DNA from: Thermoproteota archaeon | GTDB lineage: Archaea > Korarchaeota > Korarchaeia > Korarchaeales > Korarchaeaceae | Assembly: GCA_027491435.1 (NCBI GenBank) | Contig: JAOZFG010000004.1 | Location: forward strand, 62,001 to 126,000 | Length of the DNA: 64,000 bases | Direction: 5' to 3' | Part shown: positions 2,858 through 40,212 of the stretch, one piece after another | Position numbering within the stretch: the stretch's first letter is position 1 | Layout of the letters: every line of letters begins with the position of its first letter | The notes under the pieces: generated by a model | Database searches by the model: none | What the model was told of the DNA's origin: nothing | What the model saw: the letters and a program-made list of their open reading frames with translations, nothing else | Made by a program: the position numbers and the translations under genes

Positions 2858-4045
2858 TTGAAAGCCTACTTATCTGCCCTAGGAATAGGGCTTGGTCATG
2901 TATCTAGAAGCCTAGCACTAGCTAGGAGATTGACCAGAGCGGGCTTATCTGTAGCGATCTCCTCCTATGGAGACGCGCTAGAGTACGTTAAAATACATGG
3001 CGACGATATACTCGTATTTGATGGGGGTAGGGAGATTTCTTGGGTCATGGGCCCTTACGGTTCCCCTGACCTGATCAGGACCTTGAGAAATGTCCGGGAG
3101 ATACCGAAGTTCATAGAGCACGTAAGGGTGGAGATGTCCAACATAAGTAATTACGCCCCAGACGTAGTGATCTCTGACTCCAGGATATCCGCTGTCATAG
3201 CAGCTAAGGTGTTGGACGTCCCGGTGGTCGTCCTGCTGAACCAGCCCAAGCTTCTAATATCTCCTCTGATAACAGAAGCCATCTACAGGATAATCAAGGG
3301 TTTTTACTCGGACAGGATGATGAAGATTCCAGAAATTGTGGAGAGGGCGCTTAACACTGCCATGACCACCCTGTGGGCAGCTTCGGAGTTCGCCCTTATA
3401 GTGGACTTCCCCCCGCCGGATAACATATCCAGAGCTCAGACCAGCAACTTACCTAGGAGGATTCTGTCCAAAGCCGTCTTTACAGGCCCCCTAATAGAGG
3501 TGCCCTGTGAGCCCTCAGAGGAGGACCTCATCTTGATAATAGTTTCAGGCCCGGGGGCTGAGAGGAGGTCCTTGGCTGAAGATTTGCTAAAGATATCTGA
3601 TGATTTAGCTAGGGAGTTCCCAGAGTACGAGGTGGTTATATCCCTGGGAGAGCCGGGGTCTGATGAGGTTGTCGAGAGGGGAAATCTGAAGATCTACGGT
3701 TGGCTGCCAGATTCCGAGAAGTGGGAATACATGTCCAGGGCTAGCTTAGTGGTCTCTAGGGCTGGCCACACCACAATATCTGAAGCGTTGTTGTGTGGAA
3801 AGCCTTTAGTGCTCATCCCAACTCCAAAACACACTGAGAAGATTGAAAACGCCAAATCGGTCAGGGACAAGGGATTGGGCGTAGTAGTTGATCAGGTACA
3901 CGTCAGACAACAGTTAATAGGCGCGATAAAGAGAGTTCTAAGGGATCGAAACATGAAGGAGGGAGCGCTGAAGTTTAGGGAAAGGTACAAGGATTGGGAC
4001 TTTTTAGACAGGGCAGTCGGCCCTGTACTGGCTGCCCCCCGGTAG
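2858..4045 (+). CDS. GT-B glycosyltransferase, MurG/UDP-glucuronosyltransferase-like
   Basis: The 395-residue protein has a two-domain GT-B appearance. The N-terminal GIGLGHVSRSLALA loop resembles the glycine-rich start of MurG-type transferases. The C-terminal half carries SRAGHTTISEAL followed by GKPLVLIPTPKHTEKIENA, the nucleotide-sugar-binding block of GT28-like enzymes. It likely transfers a sugar from a UDP-sugar to a lipid, protein or glycan acceptor; neither donor nor acceptor is shown by sequence. The start is TTG three bases after the AMMECR1 stop. It ends immediately against the convergent coiled-coil gene with no gap. Confidence 0.75.
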   Translation: MKAYLSALGIGLGHVSRSLALARRLTRAGLSVAISSYGDALEYVKIHGDDILVFDGGREISWVMGPYGSPDLIRTLRNVREIPKFIEHVRVEMSNISNYAPDVVISDSRISAVIAAKVLDVPVVVLLNQPKLLISPLITEAIYRIIKGFYSDRMMKIPEIVERALNTAMTTLWAASEFALIVDFPPPDNISRAQTSNLPRRILSKAVFTGPLIEVPCEPSEEDLILIIVSGPGAERRSLAEDLLKISDDLAREFPEYEVVISLGEPGSDEVVERGNLKIYGWLPDSEKWEYMSRASLVVSRAGHTTISEALLCGKPLVLIPTPKHTEKIENAKSVRDKGLGVVVDQVHVRQQLIGAIKRVLRDRNMKEGALKFRERYKDWDFLDRAVGPVLAAPR

Positions 4046-4546
4046 CTATACCAAGGACCTCTCCACGGCCCACCTGAGCATCCTAAGGAAGTCGTTAAGT
4101 TCCTTCGACTTCAGGCCCTCGATTTCTAAGTATTCTAAGGTACCATCATCTTTAACCTTTAATTCGTACCTAGCGTTCGAAGACTCTTCGAATTCCTTCA
4201 TCTTCTTCAGCAGGAATGACTTGATTGGTTTGGACTCAGCGTCCACTAAGAGGCCCTCAGCAGGGGTGAACCTGAGGTAACCTTTAGCCCTATCTACCTC
4301 AACGATTCCGAGCGAATTCCCTCCCTTGCTGGTCAATTGAACCCTCTCCAGTTTTTTAGGCCCTTTTTCCACCTTTTTTCTCTCCAATTTATCCGCGGTA
4401 GTTAAGGTCTGCTCCAAGAGGGTCTCCTCTAGGGCCTCCAACATCTGTCTCAATCTGATAAGCTCATTCTCTAGCTTATTTATCCTCTTCTTGAGCAGTT
4501 CTCTAAGTTCTAGAAGCCTCTTTATCCTCTCATCATCCTGGGACAA
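4046..4546 (-). CDS. Conserved coiled-coil protein of unknown function
   Basis: I do not recognise this 166-residue protein. Residues 5-50 form a strongly predicted coiled coil with leucine heptads, followed by a lysine-rich linker (about 53-65). Residues 70-166 look like a compact alpha/beta domain with RFTPAEGLLVD and LEIEGLKSKELNDFLRML segments. The start overlaps the end of lysS by 14 nt on the same strand, so it is translated as the second gene of a lysS operon. The context hints at a translation- or nucleic-acid-linked role, but no motif proves it. Confidence 0.7.
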   Translation of the reverse strand: MSQDDERIKRLLELRELLKKRINKLENELIRLRQMLEALEETLLEQTLTTADKLERKKVEKGPKKLERVQLTSKGGNSLGIVEVDRAKGYLRFTPAEGLLVDAESKPIKSFLLKKMKEFEESSNARYELKVKDDGTLEYLEIEGLKSKELNDFLRMLRWAVERSLV

Positions 4547-34513: not shown

Positions 34514-34886
34514 CGTTAACCCTCTCTACGAACCACCTGGGCTCTCCCCTTAGCCTTATGTGGGGAATCGTGATTCCCTCCGTTGTGGTTGGGGCCTCCG
34601 AAACGTAAAACCCCTCCCCATTTTCATCAGCCCTGTATATGAGGAAGCCTCCGTCAACCCTCTCCTCTACGGTTACGTATGAGAATATGTCCGGCTTCAT
34701 CGATCCGTAGTTCCCTGAAAAGGTGCCCAGGACGTACCTACCTAACTTATCGCTCCAGAAGCCTATTATAACTCCACCGGAGTTAGAGCTGGCTATAAGC
34801 CTAAGTAAATCGTTCACAGAGGAAAGCTCAAAGAGTTCCATTTCCCAATCGCTACACTCTTTATTATCCCCCTCCATCTGGCTCAC
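34503..34886 (-). CDS. Conserved protein of unknown function, TrmB-linked
   Basis: A 127-residue protein without a recognised family. The middle reads VIIGFWSDKLGRYVLGTFSGNYG and the end HIRLRGEPRWFVERV; it looks like one alpha/beta domain without membrane segments. It overlaps the TrmB-type regulator gene by 4 nt upstream and the secreted-protein gene by 11 nt downstream, so these three are translated as one unit. Confidence 0.6.
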   Translation of the reverse strand: MSQMEGDNKECSDWEMELFELSSVNDLLRLIASSNSGGVIIGFWSDKLGRYVLGTFSGNYGSMKPDIFSYVTVEERVDGGFLIYRADENGEGFYVSEAPTTTEGITIPHIRLRGEPRWFVERVNGEE

Positions 34887-35560
34887 CCTTGTCCGATCGT
34901 GAAGGACATGGTCCTAACTATATAAAACGTTGCTTTCATGGATTTAAGTAAGTCCCCGTCTGTGGTATAAATTCCCTTACCCTCGGAGTAAATGATCAGG
35001 CCCTCTTTATCCCCTATGACGCCAGAAAAGGGTGAATTACATATTCTAAGCTCCTCCAATAAATCCTTTGCCTTGATAGCGGCCCTAATGGAGGTGAACA
35101 TAACCTCCCAACCAGCCTCACCCCTGTAATGCCTCAAGAAGCTTTCTACTAGGTCCTCGTTCACTATAAAGAGGGCCTTCTTGACCCTGCCTGCTATGCT
35201 CTCAAATATGTATTTTATGATGCTCCCAAACACGGGGACTACCTTATCCTTACCTATCAGGTAGATGGGGAGCTTAAAGGGCTTAATAGCCCCTACAAGC
35301 GAGACTTTCCTGCCGAACTCCTCTATTACATGATTTAACAGCAAAGAGGTCAGCTTATCCCTAGGAGGTCCTATGAACAGAGTGGGCCTGTAACCGACTA
35401 TCCTTATCAGCCCCTTATCCTCTAAAGACCTGCCAACTTGGTAGACTTTGGTTCTAGGTATGCCTGTCATCCTGCTGATCTCGTCAGCTTTCATTGGCTT
35501 TTCCGCTTCTATGAGTGAAGAGAGCATGATCGCCTCGTATCTAGACAGCCCTAGCTCCAC
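34883..35560 (-). CDS. TrmB-family transcriptional regulator
   Basis: An N-terminal winged helix, LGLSRYEAIMLSSLIEAEKPMKADEISRMTGIPRTKVYQVGRSLEDKGLI read over residues 2-53, matches the TrmB DNA-binding domain. The C-terminal ~150 residues are a sensor domain of unclear ligand. The GTG start lies 20 nt after the TRAM-protein stop. In other archaea TrmB regulators respond to sugars; the target here may be its own operon with the unknown and secreted proteins, by inference. Confidence 0.8.
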   Translation of the reverse strand: MELGLSRYEAIMLSSLIEAEKPMKADEISRMTGIPRTKVYQVGRSLEDKGLIRIVGYRPTLFIGPPRDKLTSLLLNHVIEEFGRKVSLVGAIKPFKLPIYLIGKDKVVPVFGSIIKYIFESIAGRVKKALFIVNEDLVESFLRHYRGEAGWEVMFTSIRAAIKAKDLLEELRICNSPFSGVIGDKEGLIIYSEGKGIYTTDGDLLKSMKATFYIVRTMSFTIGQG

Positions 35561-35948: not shown

Positions 35949-37178
35949 CTAGGGTGCTGTGAGAGGTCTTTTACCTATTTCGTTTCCCATCTCATCAAAT
36001 CTAACGTAACCTAAGGCCAAGGCGTCGAATTGATCCGTGGAGGCTAGCAAAGATGCCCTGCGGGACTTAAGGTCCAGCTCCTTAATTATTCCAACCCCCA
36101 CACAGGTTCGCCCTCTGATCAAACCAACGTAGAGGTTAGAGTAGTCTCTGACGTTCCCCAGCCTAACCTCCTTGTTCAACAGCCGAGATATGGTGTTGAC
36201 CCTGTACTGGTCAGCTTCCCCCTCATGCAGGATTACAAGGGAGTCAGGAGACTCCTCAACCCATACCACGTTAACGCTTAACAACTCCTTCAGAAGTCCC
36301 GAGTATTCAAGCCTTTGGTTCCCGGTCAACAAGGACGTGTTTAACAGCCTAATATCGTTAAGATCCACCTGAACCTCCCTAGAGTCCTTCATGAAGAAGT
36401 CGAACATCTCCATCCTGGCTGCCCTCCTATAATTTCTCGATTTTGAGGACACCTCTTGAGGAGATCTGACTTTTATCACCCTCGCCCAAGGTGGAAGGCT
36501 CCTCTCTATGTGTCTTAAATCTCCCTCATCCTTTTCTATTAACACGACGACGTCTGGGTCGTAGGCCTCAACTTTATACCTTTTTAACGCTCTTGCAGGG
36601 CTCCCGTCCACGTAGCCCGTGGTGTTCAACAACTGGGTTCCTTTACCGACCGTGTCGGAAAGGGCCTTGACGCCAACCACCATGGGAAGCAGGTGTCCTC
36701 GGGGAGTTGTATCCCCCACGAAGTACATGTGATCGGGGTTGAGCAGCCTGAGGTGCACGAACGTCTCCCCTACCTTTTTCGCGGCTATTACTCCAGGAGG
36801 GCCTAGATCAGACTGACCTACGTCCGAGTCCACTATAGCCACTTCCTCACCACTCGCTATCAGCTTGCTGGCAACGTACATTATCGTAGAACTCTTGCCG
36901 GAATCAACCCTGCCTATTAACATAACCTTTCGATCGAGAGCCTCTTCGACTAACTCATCCCACCAGCTGGGGATCGGGTTCTCGACCTTCCTAACTTCTC
37001 CGACTACCTCCACCTTAGATCTCTCCTGACTCCAGACTAGGACGTCGATGCCCTCCATGTCTACCGAGATAGAGTTTACGTCGAAATACCAAGCTTTAGC
37101 GCTGCCATCCAACACCTCCAACCTGAAGGGGCTCCTGAGAAGGATCCCCGTCCCCTTAGTCAGCTCCACAGTGACCAT
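35949..37178 (-). CDS. Clp1-family RNA 5'-kinase
   Basis: Polynucleotide kinase of the Clp1/Grc3/Nol9 family, phosphorylating RNA 5'-OH ends. Walker A is GRVDSGKSS (about residues 88-96), with DSDVGQSDLGPPG, TTGYVDG and the SLLASTDQFDALALGYVRF end typical of Clp1. Length 409 matches archaeal members. The start codon (MVTVELT) is divergent from the RuBisCO-like gene with 42 nt between. RtcA and ThpR in the window act on the other RNA end. Confidence 0.88.
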   Translation of the reverse strand: MVTVELTKGTGILLRSPFRLEVLDGSAKAWYFDVNSISVDMEGIDVLVWSQERSKVEVVGEVRKVENPIPSWWDELVEEALDRKVMLIGRVDSGKSSTIMYVASKLIASGEEVAIVDSDVGQSDLGPPGVIAAKKVGETFVHLRLLNPDHMYFVGDTTPRGHLLPMVVGVKALSDTVGKGTQLLNTTGYVDGSPARALKRYKVEAYDPDVVVLIEKDEGDLRHIERSLPPWARVIKVRSPQEVSSKSRNYRRAARMEMFDFFMKDSREVQVDLNDIRLLNTSLLTGNQRLEYSGLLKELLSVNVVWVEESPDSLVILHEGEADQYRVNTISRLLNKEVRLGNVRDYSNLYVGLIRGRTCVGVGIIKELDLKSRRASLLASTDQFDALALGYVRFDEMGNEIGKRPLTAP

Positions 37179-37220
37179 TTAGCCCACCTCAGATAACGAT
37201 TTAAGTTAAGGTTGTAACAC

Positions 37221-38222
37221 ATGACTGTGGACGGCGACCGCTTTCACCTGATAGAGGTGCTGCTTGATTGTGAAAAACGTTTACACGTGGTTCCTGAGGG
37301 GTTTGAGGTTGTCGATGAAGGGGGCTTCAGGATCAGGCTTAGAGCGCCGACGGCCTCTCCTTCGGAACTGCTCGGCATGCTGTGGGAAATCTCCTTGGAC
37401 GAAAATGGGGAGCCATGCAGGATAAAGGAAGTCAAGGCACCAATCAATAGGAGGACTGGCTTCAGGGGAAAGACCGTCCTCAGGAGGATACTGGGGAGGG
37501 GCCCTATGCTAGCAGCCTCAATAGCTAAGGGAAGGATATTGGATCCCAGGAATCACGCCAAACTTTTCTCTGAGATGGCTAGACAGGGCTTAGATATAGG
37601 CATGGATCCGCTACACTATTCTGACTTAGAGCTTTACGAGAGAGCCTATCACATAGAGGAGGAGATCGACAGCTTTAAGGAAGAAGGAAAAAGAGTTTTA
37701 TACGTCTACAACGCCCCTAAGACAGCCGATTTACTGGAAAAGGTGATCTCTTTAGGGGCCAAGGCCTTCAGGGTGGACTCGTTAAACTTGGAGCTGTTTA
37801 ACTTGCTGGCCGATGTCAAGGTAATGATCTTCTTAACCAGACCTTACCTGCTCCCCCGATTAAGCCTAGAATCAATATACAACCTGCTCCCTCCCTTCGG
37901 CTTTGAAGCAATTGAAAGGCCGTCCTCAAGTAAATGGACTAAAGCGGAGCATTTAGATCGATTAATAAAGAGGACTGGTTCACTTCCAATGACCTCTCCG
38001 GATGTAACCCCAAGAAACTTGGATTACAACATGTCCGACCTAGACGTAATAATATGGGCCGATGTCTTCATCTACGCTCACCCCTCCGGGCCGTTAGCTG
38101 GAGTTAGGGCAGCTAGGGAGATGATAGATTCATACCTTAGGGGAGAGAGCCTCATAACAGTAGCGAGAAGGGTTGAGGAGGTAGGGCAGGCTGTTGAGAA
38201 ATGGGGCTTGGAGCTGAGGTAA
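37221..38222 (+). CDS. RuBisCO-like protein without the RuBisCO active site
   Basis: A 333-residue homologue of archaeal RuBisCO large chain that has lost its catalytic residues. From about residue 85 it follows the barrel: LGRGPMLAASIAKG lines up with the RPIxGxVPKPK strand, GLDIGMDPL (123-131) with GADYMKDDE, where the carbamylated Lys is Met128 and the metal-binding Asp and Glu are Pro130 and Leu131, and TRP (206-208) with the HR motif. The end HPSGPLAGVRAAREMIDSYL (287-306) and VEKWG closely match the RuBisCO tail, but the phosphate-binding GGG before it is absent, and the loop-6 region is shortened. Normal length is about 420-440. Function unknown; neighbour is DUF72, overlapping by 22 nt. 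Confidence 0.75.
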   Translation: MTVDGDRFHLIEVLLDCEKRLHVVPEGFEVVDEGGFRIRLRAPTASPSELLGMLWEISLDENGEPCRIKEVKAPINRRTGFRGKTVLRRILGRGPMLAASIAKGRILDPRNHAKLFSEMARQGLDIGMDPLHYSDLELYERAYHIEEEIDSFKEEGKRVLYVYNAPKTADLLEKVISLGAKAFRVDSLNLELFNLLADVKVMIFLTRPYLLPRLSLESIYNLLPPFGFEAIERPSSSKWTKAEHLDRLIKRTGSLPMTSPDVTPRNLDYNMSDLDVIIWADVFIYAHPSGPLAGVRAAREMIDSYLRGESLITVARRVEEVGQAVEKWGLELR

Positions 38223-38935
38223 AGGTAGGGTGTTGCGGCTTTCCTATAAGCAAAAGAAGGTACTATGAAGAGTTCAGGGTTGTTGAAGTTCAGAAAACTT
38301 TCTATAAACCACCAAGAGTCGAAACAGCCCTGAAGTGGAGGGAAGAGGCTCCTGATGATTTCGAATTTACGGTAAAGGCTTGGATGGCTTTCACGCACAA
38401 CCCCAAATCTCCCATGTGGAGTAAGAGCGGCTTGCCTAGGAAAGAGGGTTATGGGCTCCTCAAGCCCACGTCCAAAAACTTAGAGAGGTGGGAGGAGTTC
38501 CTAAAGGTAGTAAGGGCTTTAAAATCGAAAGTCGTGGTATTTCAGAGCCCACCGTCCTTCAAGGCCACGGAAGAAAACATGAAGAACGTTAAAGAATTCT
38601 TCAGGTCGATCAGGGGAGACGTCGAGCTGATTGGCTGGGAGGTCAGGCATGAGAGCTGGAGCGGCCCCTTGAGGGAGATCCTACCAGAATTGGACTTGAT
38701 ACATGTGGTCGATCCACTTTATGAGCTTCCAGTTCACGGAAATGTGTTATACTTCAGGCTTCACGGGAGGAGGGAGGGCAGGAGAATAGTGTATAACCAC
38801 AGGTACACGGGTGATGAGCTAGAGGAGGTTATGAGGGTGCTAGCTGATCTGGGCAAGCCCGGCTACGTGATGTTCAATAACGGGATATTCATGAGGGAGA
38901 GCGCCCTAAACTTCCTGAAGAAGATTCAGACGTAG
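38201..38935 (+). CDS. DUF72 (YecE-like) protein
   Basis: TIM-barrel-like DUF72 protein, 244 residues: VKVGCCGFPISKRRYYEEF at the start, FYKPPRVETALKWREEAPDDFEFTVKA, and VVFQSPPSFKATEENM. Family function is unknown; it is sometimes found near nucleases or metabolic genes. The ATG overlaps the end of the RuBisCO-like gene by 22 nt, so the two are translated together. The 3' end overlaps the convergent crenactin gene by 10 nt. Confidence 0.85.
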   Translation: MGLGAEVKVGCCGFPISKRRYYEEFRVVEVQKTFYKPPRVETALKWREEAPDDFEFTVKAWMAFTHNPKSPMWSKSGLPRKEGYGLLKPTSKNLERWEEFLKVVRALKSKVVVFQSPPSFKATEENMKNVKEFFRSIRGDVELIGWEVRHESWSGPLREILPELDLIHVVDPLYELPVHGNVLYFRLHGRREGRRIVYNHRYTGDELEEVMRVLADLGKPGYVMFNNGIFMRESALNFLKKIQT

Positions 38936-40212
38936 TGCCAACCCTCCAAAGTTGACCAGTTCCACCTCAACGTCTCGGGAACTGCCATCCCATAGACTAC
39001 AGATCCTCTCCACACGCTGTATTGCGGGTCTGAAACCATCTTGGGCTTTGTTTCAATTCCCAGCTTGGAGAGCATTAGCTTCATCTTGGTGGGCGAGTCA
39101 GTCGCTACCCCCTTGAGAGCGGGTGGAACTGACCAGTTGAAGGCGCCTCCTGATAGTATCAGGTTCTTGGATATGGCAGCCTGTAACTCCACAGGAGTCT
39201 TAGCGATGGCCCTTTTTACCGCCTCAGCCAAGCTAACATTCCCAGGTATAACCTCACCACCTATTAGAGTGTCCTTGGGCGGGGTGAACCCCCTGCTATA
39301 GTAGCTCTCGAAGATCTCGTGGGAGGGGTTGAAGAAGTACTCGCCGATCAGGAACCTCTGCCAGACCTTGTCGCCCATGTCCACCTCGACAGCTGTTCCG
39401 GGTATCCTGAAGACGGACTGGAGTACGCTTGGGTGCTCTTTCGCCCACTTAATGGCCTTATCTAGGTCTATAGGGACAAGGCCCACTGACTCTTTGAATA
39501 TCCTAACGAACTTCTCCTCCCTGGCCAGCTCGGGGTAGCCTAGATCCCTAAGTATTTGAGCAGCTATCCTATCGGAATCGCTCCCTCCCCTGTTTAGCGG
39601 TATAAGGGCCGTCCTTATCACGTCCCTGCTTATGGGCGTTATCTGAGTGTTACCATGACCAGCTTCTATCACTATGCAAGTGGTGGCCCTCTCAGCTATG
39701 GCAACTGCTAGGGGTTGAGGTATTATGGTAACAGCCCTTACCAAGTTCCCCCCTTCCTCAGCGTTCACCTCCTCGTGTATGCTAAACATCCTTTCAAACA
39801 TGTAAGTGGGGGACTGCGCTGCGAGGGAAACCACCACGTAAAATCCGTTGAAGGGGGTCCCGTCAACGGCCTTCTCACCTGGGTAGTACTTCTTCAACCC
39901 ATATCTCACTAGCTCCTTGATTACCCTCCAACCCCTCTCGTCGTTTCTCTCCACTATACCGTTCCTCATGGGGTAGTGTAACCGGGTCAAGTCAGCCCTA
40001 GACTCGAGGTATTCGGTGACCTCGGGGCCGACGATAACCTCTCTCGGAGTAATCCCCCTGATCTCAGCTGAAACCTTTGAGATCTTTGGGAAGTAGCCCC
40101 TGTTCTCAACCACGTCGGGTCCCTTCTTCATTAGCCACCAGGGTCCAAACTTATAGAAGGACGTGCCGAAATCAGAGGCGAACACGTGCTTGCCAGACTT
40201 CGACAGCTTCAC
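38926..40212 (-). CDS. Crenactin (archaeal actin homologue)
   Basis: The sequence follows the Pyrobaculum crenactin closely: ASDFGTSFYKFGP (phosphate 1), RGYF, LHYPMRNGIVERNDERGW, IIPQPLAVAIAERATTCIVIEAGHGNTQI (phosphate 2), ILSGGAFNW (adenosine), and SEPQYSVWRG-like SDPQYSVWRGSVVYG at the end. Length 428 is normal. Crenactin forms double-stranded filaments in Thermoproteales. None of the neighbours looks like an arcadin. Its start lies 41 nt inside the Ogt gene. Confidence 0.92.
   Translation of the reverse strand: MKLSKSGKHVFASDFGTSFYKFGPWWLMKKGPDVVENRGYFPKISKVSAEIRGITPREVIVGPEVTEYLESRADLTRLHYPMRNGIVERNDERGWRVIKELVRYGLKKYYPGEKAVDGTPFNGFYVVVSLAAQSPTYMFERMFSIHEEVNAEEGGNLVRAVTIIPQPLAVAIAERATTCIVIEAGHGNTQITPISRDVIRTALIPLNRGGSDSDRIAAQILRDLGYPELAREEKFVRIFKESVGLVPIDLDKAIKWAKEHPSVLQSVFRIPGTAVEVDMGDKVWQRFLIGEYFFNPSHEIFESYYSRGFTPPKDTLIGGEVIPGNVSLAEAVKRAIAKTPVELQAAISKNLILSGGAFNWSVPPALKGVATDSPTKMKLMLSKLGIETKPKMVSDPQYSVWRGSVVYGMAVPETLRWNWSTLEGWHYV

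Follow-up and report, generated by a model that had tools for sequence, protein, structure and literature searches.

A RuBisCO-like protein without the RuBisCO active site, conserved in Korarchaeaceae and present without the AMP pathway in Korarchaeum

The window analysed here is a 64,000-nucleotide stretch of a Korarchaeaceae contig (JAOZFG010000004.1, positions 62,001 to 126,000 of the forward strand; assembly GCA_027491435.1), and all coordinates are counted from its first letter. An open reading frame at 37221..38222 (+), with an ATG start and a TAA stop, encodes a 333-residue RuBisCO-like protein stripped of its active site, as judged from the ORF, homology, individual residues and a structural model; limits and length were exactly those given in an earlier, sequence-only reading of this DNA. 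The product of this ORF is referred to below as the window protein, and the window protein together with its 15 orthologues as the stripped clade. On one side lies a Clp1-type P-loop kinase gene (35949..37178, -; PF16575, 2.1e-32), the anchor of a conserved locus. The two genes are divergent and only 42 bp apart (37179-37220), so that their promoters must overlap or sit partly within genes. The Clp1-side cluster also contains a TrmB-type transcriptional regulator (34883-35560, -), which is conserved across much of the family, including genomes without the RuBisCO relative. On the other side, the start of an ORF for a 244-residue DUF72 (YecE-like) protein (38201..38935, +; PF01904, 1.1e-40) overlaps the end of the RuBisCO-relative ORF by 22 nt (38201..38222, +). 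An actin-family protein is encoded at 38926-40212 (-; PF00022, 1.5e-11) and is among the slowest-evolving genes of the locus. An assembly artefact or contamination was rejected, since the contig that carries the gene is 266 kb long and the local gene order is common to five genera.

Single-sequence searches detected chiefly the C-terminal third of the window protein. NCBIfam rubisco_III (TIGR03326) matched residues 249-328 (3.7e-9), Pfam RuBisCO_large matched at 2.7e-5, under its gathering cut-off, and the top phmmer match in the PDB was MtnW 2oek (4.6e-8). Homology to RuBisCO had been described as clearest at the C-terminal end. Profile matches were well above chance: the window protein scored 56 bits (2e-17) with a profile built from catalytic archaeal homologues, the best of 200 shuffles reaching 3.5 bits, and chance similarity was rejected by this comparison. 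A profile including relatives was aligned to form III RuBisCO 8dht over positions 41-359 of 361 (E 2.7e-31). In the profile-profile comparison that had been proposed as a check, the stripped clade without the window protein was matched to catalytic homologues over 370 columns (hhalign; probability 100, E 2e-54). An AlphaFold2 model of the window protein, built from 11 sequences, had a pLDDT of 75.7 and a pTM of 0.77, and 50/50 of the Foldseek PDB matches listed were RuBisCO or RuBisCO-like proteins (best E 3.9e-16; TM normalised to query 0.70-0.76 among the matches listed). The model of a Methanodesulfokora orthologue (pLDDT 88.2) likewise matched only RuBisCO or RuBisCO-like proteins among the 50 matches listed (TM 0.79-0.85). 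The predicted structure of the window protein overlays on RuBisCO and not on another TIM barrel, so that neither of the two observations named beforehand as counting against the homology, a better profile match elsewhere or a failure to overlay, was made. Assignment to another TIM-barrel family was rejected on the top fold and sequence matches, all RuBisCO, and membership of the window protein in the RuBisCO superfamily (large-subunit fold) is confirmed.

Catalytic residues are numbered as in RuBisCO (Lys175, Lys201, Lys334 etc.), which we take to be spinach numbering. Column alignment bore out the residues picked out in the sequence-only reading. The PKPK motif (Lys175/Lys177) is replaced by IAKG at residues 101-104 (37521..37532, +), with Ala102 in the Lys175 column and Gly104 in the Lys177 column, and Met128-Asp129-Pro130-Leu131 (37602..37613, +) stands at the KDDE motif of the carbamylated Lys201 and the metal ligands Asp203 and Glu204. 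The loop-6 Lys and the GGG motif are absent; the first Gly of this P1-phosphate loop is replaced by Asp281 (38061..38063, +), which is invariant in the clade, the column being Gly in 34/34 catalytic homologues and Asp in 10/10 stripped-clade representatives. Thr206, Glu232 and Ser237 occupy the His294, His327 and Lys334 columns. The window protein is without Lys175, Lys334, His294, His327 and the phosphate-binding Gly residues of forms I-III, and it does not qualify as a catalytic RuBisCO of these forms, since it carries Met128, Pro130 and Leu131 where they have the carbamylated Lys201, Asp203 and Glu204. It agrees with RuBisCO at only 3/21 catalytic or near-catalytic columns (Glu33 at E60, Arg207 at R295 and Ser259 at S379, none clade-conserved), so the description of essentially the whole active site as lost holds.

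Across all 16 clade members, 0/21 of these columns keep the RuBisCO residue; catalytic homologues keep nearly all. Lys201, Asp203 and Glu204 are retained by all catalytic homologues. Among the 16 clade members Met, Phe, Ala, Leu, Arg and Val occur in the Lys201 column, and the Asp203 column is mostly Pro (9/10 representatives) and otherwise Ile, a pattern that leaves no metal site there. Without the carbamate and the metal ligands, the known mechanism allows neither RuBP carboxylation nor the MtnW enolase reaction. The structural HPxG motif is retained as HPSG at residues 287-290 (38079..38090, +) and is kept in 16/16 clade members. Arg307-Gly308-Glu309 (38139..38147, +) forms a clade-specific RGE signature, invariant in the clade; neither its Arg nor its Glu is consensus in catalytic RuBisCO.

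The stripped protein was found in 16/24 Korarchaeaceae (f1) genomes and in 0 of about 370 other archaea. Profile scores in 394 archaeal genomes were at least 376 bits for the stripped clade and at most 213 bits for all others. A scan of 84,980 prokaryote genomes with a motif built from a 6-row alignment, which detects only motif-bearing sequences, returned stripped-clade loci only. The clade was monophyletic and separate (support 100/99) in a tree that has long branches, includes no bacterial form IV and has no fixed root; because of the long branches its position among RuBisCO forms is unsafe. An origin by recent duplication from the catalytic RuBisCO of Korarchaea was not supported, the clade lying outside all catalytic sequences, with the same reservation about its exact position.

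Within the family, the genus of the window (g1, Korarchaeum or a close ally, called Korarchaeum here) was represented by 16 genomes and the other genera (g2-g5) by 8. The stripped gene is retained at the same locus in 9/16 Korarchaeum genomes, the window's included. In six others Clp1 is followed directly by DUF72 with no stripped-gene remnant detected, and one (G004), 63% complete, is uninformative on gene presence. On the tree of eight neighbouring genes this distribution needs three changes and is best read as largely vertical descent with about three losses, which would make the role a dispensable one.

Repeated gene loss and graded shortening, from about 400 residues in g3 through 356-361 in most Korarchaeum to 333 in the window, are what would be expected of a relic gene decaying into a pseudogene. 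We regard such a relic as most improbable, because all 16 ORFs of the stripped clade are intact and free of internal stops, close clade pairs have a dN/dS of 0.05-0.19, and the window protein keeps clade-invariant residues; an outright pseudogene was not supported on the same grounds. The dN/dS values were obtained by a simple Nei-Gojobori method for pairs with estimable dS, dS being high in some, and the flanking Clp1 and DUF72 genes gave similar values. The nearest relative of the window protein is about 40% identical, too distant for dN/dS on the window's own gene. The window protein retains 22/26 residues that are invariant in eight other representatives, at an overall identity of 24-36%. 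Selection in the absence of the catalytic residues, as in a pseudoenzyme, is shown for the clade, and for the gene of the window protein itself only indirectly.

Residues 271-330 are the most conserved stretch, and Asp281, Arg233, Arg307 and Glu309, as well as Pro130, are fixed or nearly fixed in the clade. In the stripped clade, 18 catalytic or near-catalytic columns had a mean pairwise identity of 0.226 versus 0.321 for all columns, and 95.7% of random column draws were at least as conserved. The same 18 columns in catalytic homologues gave 0.875 versus 0.470. Adding the invariant Asp281 column lifts the stripped-clade value to only about 0.27 (arithmetic estimate). The old substrate pocket of the stripped clade is relaxed, and since its columns vary more than average a non-catalytic role is favoured over new chemistry at the same site. 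Asp281 nevertheless lies in the old pocket, and together with the other clade-fixed residues it makes a new catalytic or binding site possible. A neo-functionalised enzyme, with a site perhaps built on Asp281, Arg233, Arg141 and Asp129 and a substrate that is not a sugar bisphosphate, would account for the clade-specific invariant polar residues and the strong purifying selection, and RuBisCO-like proteins with other reactions provide a precedent (PMC1821046). We consider this enzyme doubtful, though to be kept in view: taken together, the old catalytic columns show below-average conservation, no metal site is left at the Lys201/Asp203 columns, and Asp281 (with Pro130) is the only newly fixed residue in the pocket.

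Gene order was compared across the family. In g2, g4 and g5 the stripped gene is followed by a ribose-1,5-bisphosphate isomerase gene (opposite strand), DUF72 and the actin-like gene, and in g2 and g4 Clp1 lies on the stripped gene's other side. In g3 the isomerase gene adjoins the stripped gene, and DUF72 is absent between the isomerase and actin-like genes. The isomerases of g2-g5 scored 425-437 bits against TIGR00511 (cut-off 314). In Korarchaeum the 22-nt overlap with DUF72 is the same in eight other loci and so is found in 9/9 loci with the gene (one contig is cut within DUF72); it results from loss of the isomerase gene from between the two. The sequence-only reading had proposed translational coupling to DUF72 and a possible partnership. 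The overlap is real and coupled translation likely, which speaks for a functional unit of the two proteins; the specific partnership did not stand, and we think such a unit very unlikely. DUF72 is present in 15/16 Korarchaeum genomes, including the six without the RuBisCO relative, and the co-occurrence survey that had been suggested came out against the pairing, since these six have DUF72 alone, the isomerase gene intervenes in three other genera and a fourth genus has no DUF72 at the locus. On these grounds DUF72 was also rejected as an ancestral partner, and the overlap is weak evidence of partnership.

Ribose-1,5-bisphosphate isomerase makes the substrate of RuBisCO in the archaeal AMP pathway. 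Catalytic form III RuBisCO, isomerase and AMP phosphorylase were present in 8/8 g2-g5 genomes (one AMP phosphorylase partial), and the three-enzyme pathway has been reported for Korarchaeia in a published survey (PMC10667645). The 16 Korarchaeum genomes yielded 0 form III RuBisCO and 0 AMP phosphorylase or isomerase above cut-off; one had a weak AMP phosphorylase match below cut-off. A non-catalytic partner or regulator of the pathway, for example one that forms mixed oligomers with form III RuBisCO or binds the isomerase, is suggested by the isomerase gene adjoining the stripped gene in four genera and by the presence of catalytic RuBisCO alongside the stripped protein in 7/8 g2-g5 genomes. 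We judge it unlikely, because Korarchaeum keeps the stripped protein without any of the three enzymes, because one g5 genome (G019) keeps the isomerase and catalytic RuBisCO but, in the stretch from Clp1 to the isomerase gene, has no stripped gene, and because the isomerase and stripped genes are convergent and form no operon. The stripped protein and the pathway therefore separate in both directions, and the stripped protein is no obligate partner of the AMP pathway today.

The window protein shares with form III RuBisCO (8dht, 6hun, 3a12) its fold, the order of its elements, HPxG, the WG end and the 370-column profile match, and in related genera its gene adjoins that of the AMP-pathway isomerase. 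It differs from form III in being without the carbamylation Lys, metal ligands, GGG loop and loop-6 Lys, in its length (333 versus about 430 residues) and in occurring without the pathway. MtnW, the 2,3-diketo-5-methylthiopentyl-1-phosphate enolase (4nas, 2oek, 2zvi), ranks with the top matches by structure and by single sequence and has a short loop 6 in common with the window protein; however, Lys175, SGG and the carbamylation motif KDDE, all retained in the MtnW-like homologues L017 and L024, are absent from the window protein. Its scores fell far below the MtnW enolase cut-offs (34.7 bits vs 409 for PRK09549.1; 31.2 vs 513.6 for TIGR03332), and the carbamylated Lys and metal ligands of that enzyme are not present. 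The form IV proteins of Chlorobium tepidum (1ykw) and Rhodopseudomonas (2qyg) resemble the window protein in having the RuBisCO fold and an altered active site. These two are generally known to keep part of the RuBisCO site, whereas the stripped clade conserves no part of that site and is unconstrained in its pocket columns. Form IV has been used for RuBisCO-like proteins without the RuBisCO active-site residues (PMC5575542), and in that loose sense the stripped clade belongs to form IV, as a new and extreme kind. A limited search of the literature on Korarchaeota RuBisCO, RuBisCO-like proteins and pseudoenzymes, with key literature outside its reach, found no such group, as the earlier reading had also stated.

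A second RuBisCO-like protein is encoded in the same genome (G000 contig 9, L072, 4467-5705, -; 413 residues). Unlike the window protein it keeps KDDE, His-Arg, His327 and SGG, and it falls outside the stripped clade; its loop-6 Lys334 is replaced by Ser, Thr65/Trp66 are altered and the GGG is broken. Its gene lies on a 7.9-kb contig among neighbours mostly without Pfam matches. A degraded, stop-containing copy of this second protein (HRTMHTAFTKNRDHGVDMKVLIKLFRVAGADIRHIG) was found in another Korarchaeum species (G001 contig 11, L073, about 3500-4100, -).

The reading we favour, with about even confidence, makes the window protein a RuBisCO-superfamily pseudoenzyme that outlived its pathway. 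In the Korarchaeaceae ancestor a RuBisCO-related gene would have adjoined that of ribose-1,5-bisphosphate isomerase; we infer this original link to the AMP pathway from gene adjacency only. The lineage lost the carbamylated Lys, metal ligands, conserved phosphate-binding residues and loop-6 Lys, and the N-terminal domain was largely lost at a later stage; the barrel scaffold and C-terminal part remained under selection. The stripped protein most likely binds another protein or a non-bisphosphate ligand, in a regulatory or scaffolding role and without catalysis; judged from the loss of the site and the relaxed pocket, a non-catalytic role is the most likely one. The conserved scaffold and C-terminal part fit a binding role, and the relaxed pocket argues against a replacement active site there. 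In Korarchaeum, this role would have outlived the AMP phosphorylase, isomerase and RuBisCO pathway. The sequence-only reading had left a choice between a non-catalytic and a re-purposed barrel; the protein now belongs to a site-stripped, selected group found only in Korarchaeaceae, and the relaxed pocket columns tilt the choice towards the non-catalytic.

As far as we know, every RuBisCO-like protein characterised to date is an enzyme in which parts of the RuBisCO site are put to renewed use. We think it probable that the stripped clade is an undescribed RuBisCO clade of the Korarchaeaceae alone, which dropped the site, took on a regulatory or scaffolding role or new chemistry, and survives without form III RuBisCO or its pathway. 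A selected clade without the site would demonstrate that reuse of the RuBisCO scaffold does not depend on its chemistry. Within the family the protein shortens by degrees, from about 400 residues with the pathway to 333 without it, a natural series along which the route from enzyme to pseudoenzyme can be tested.
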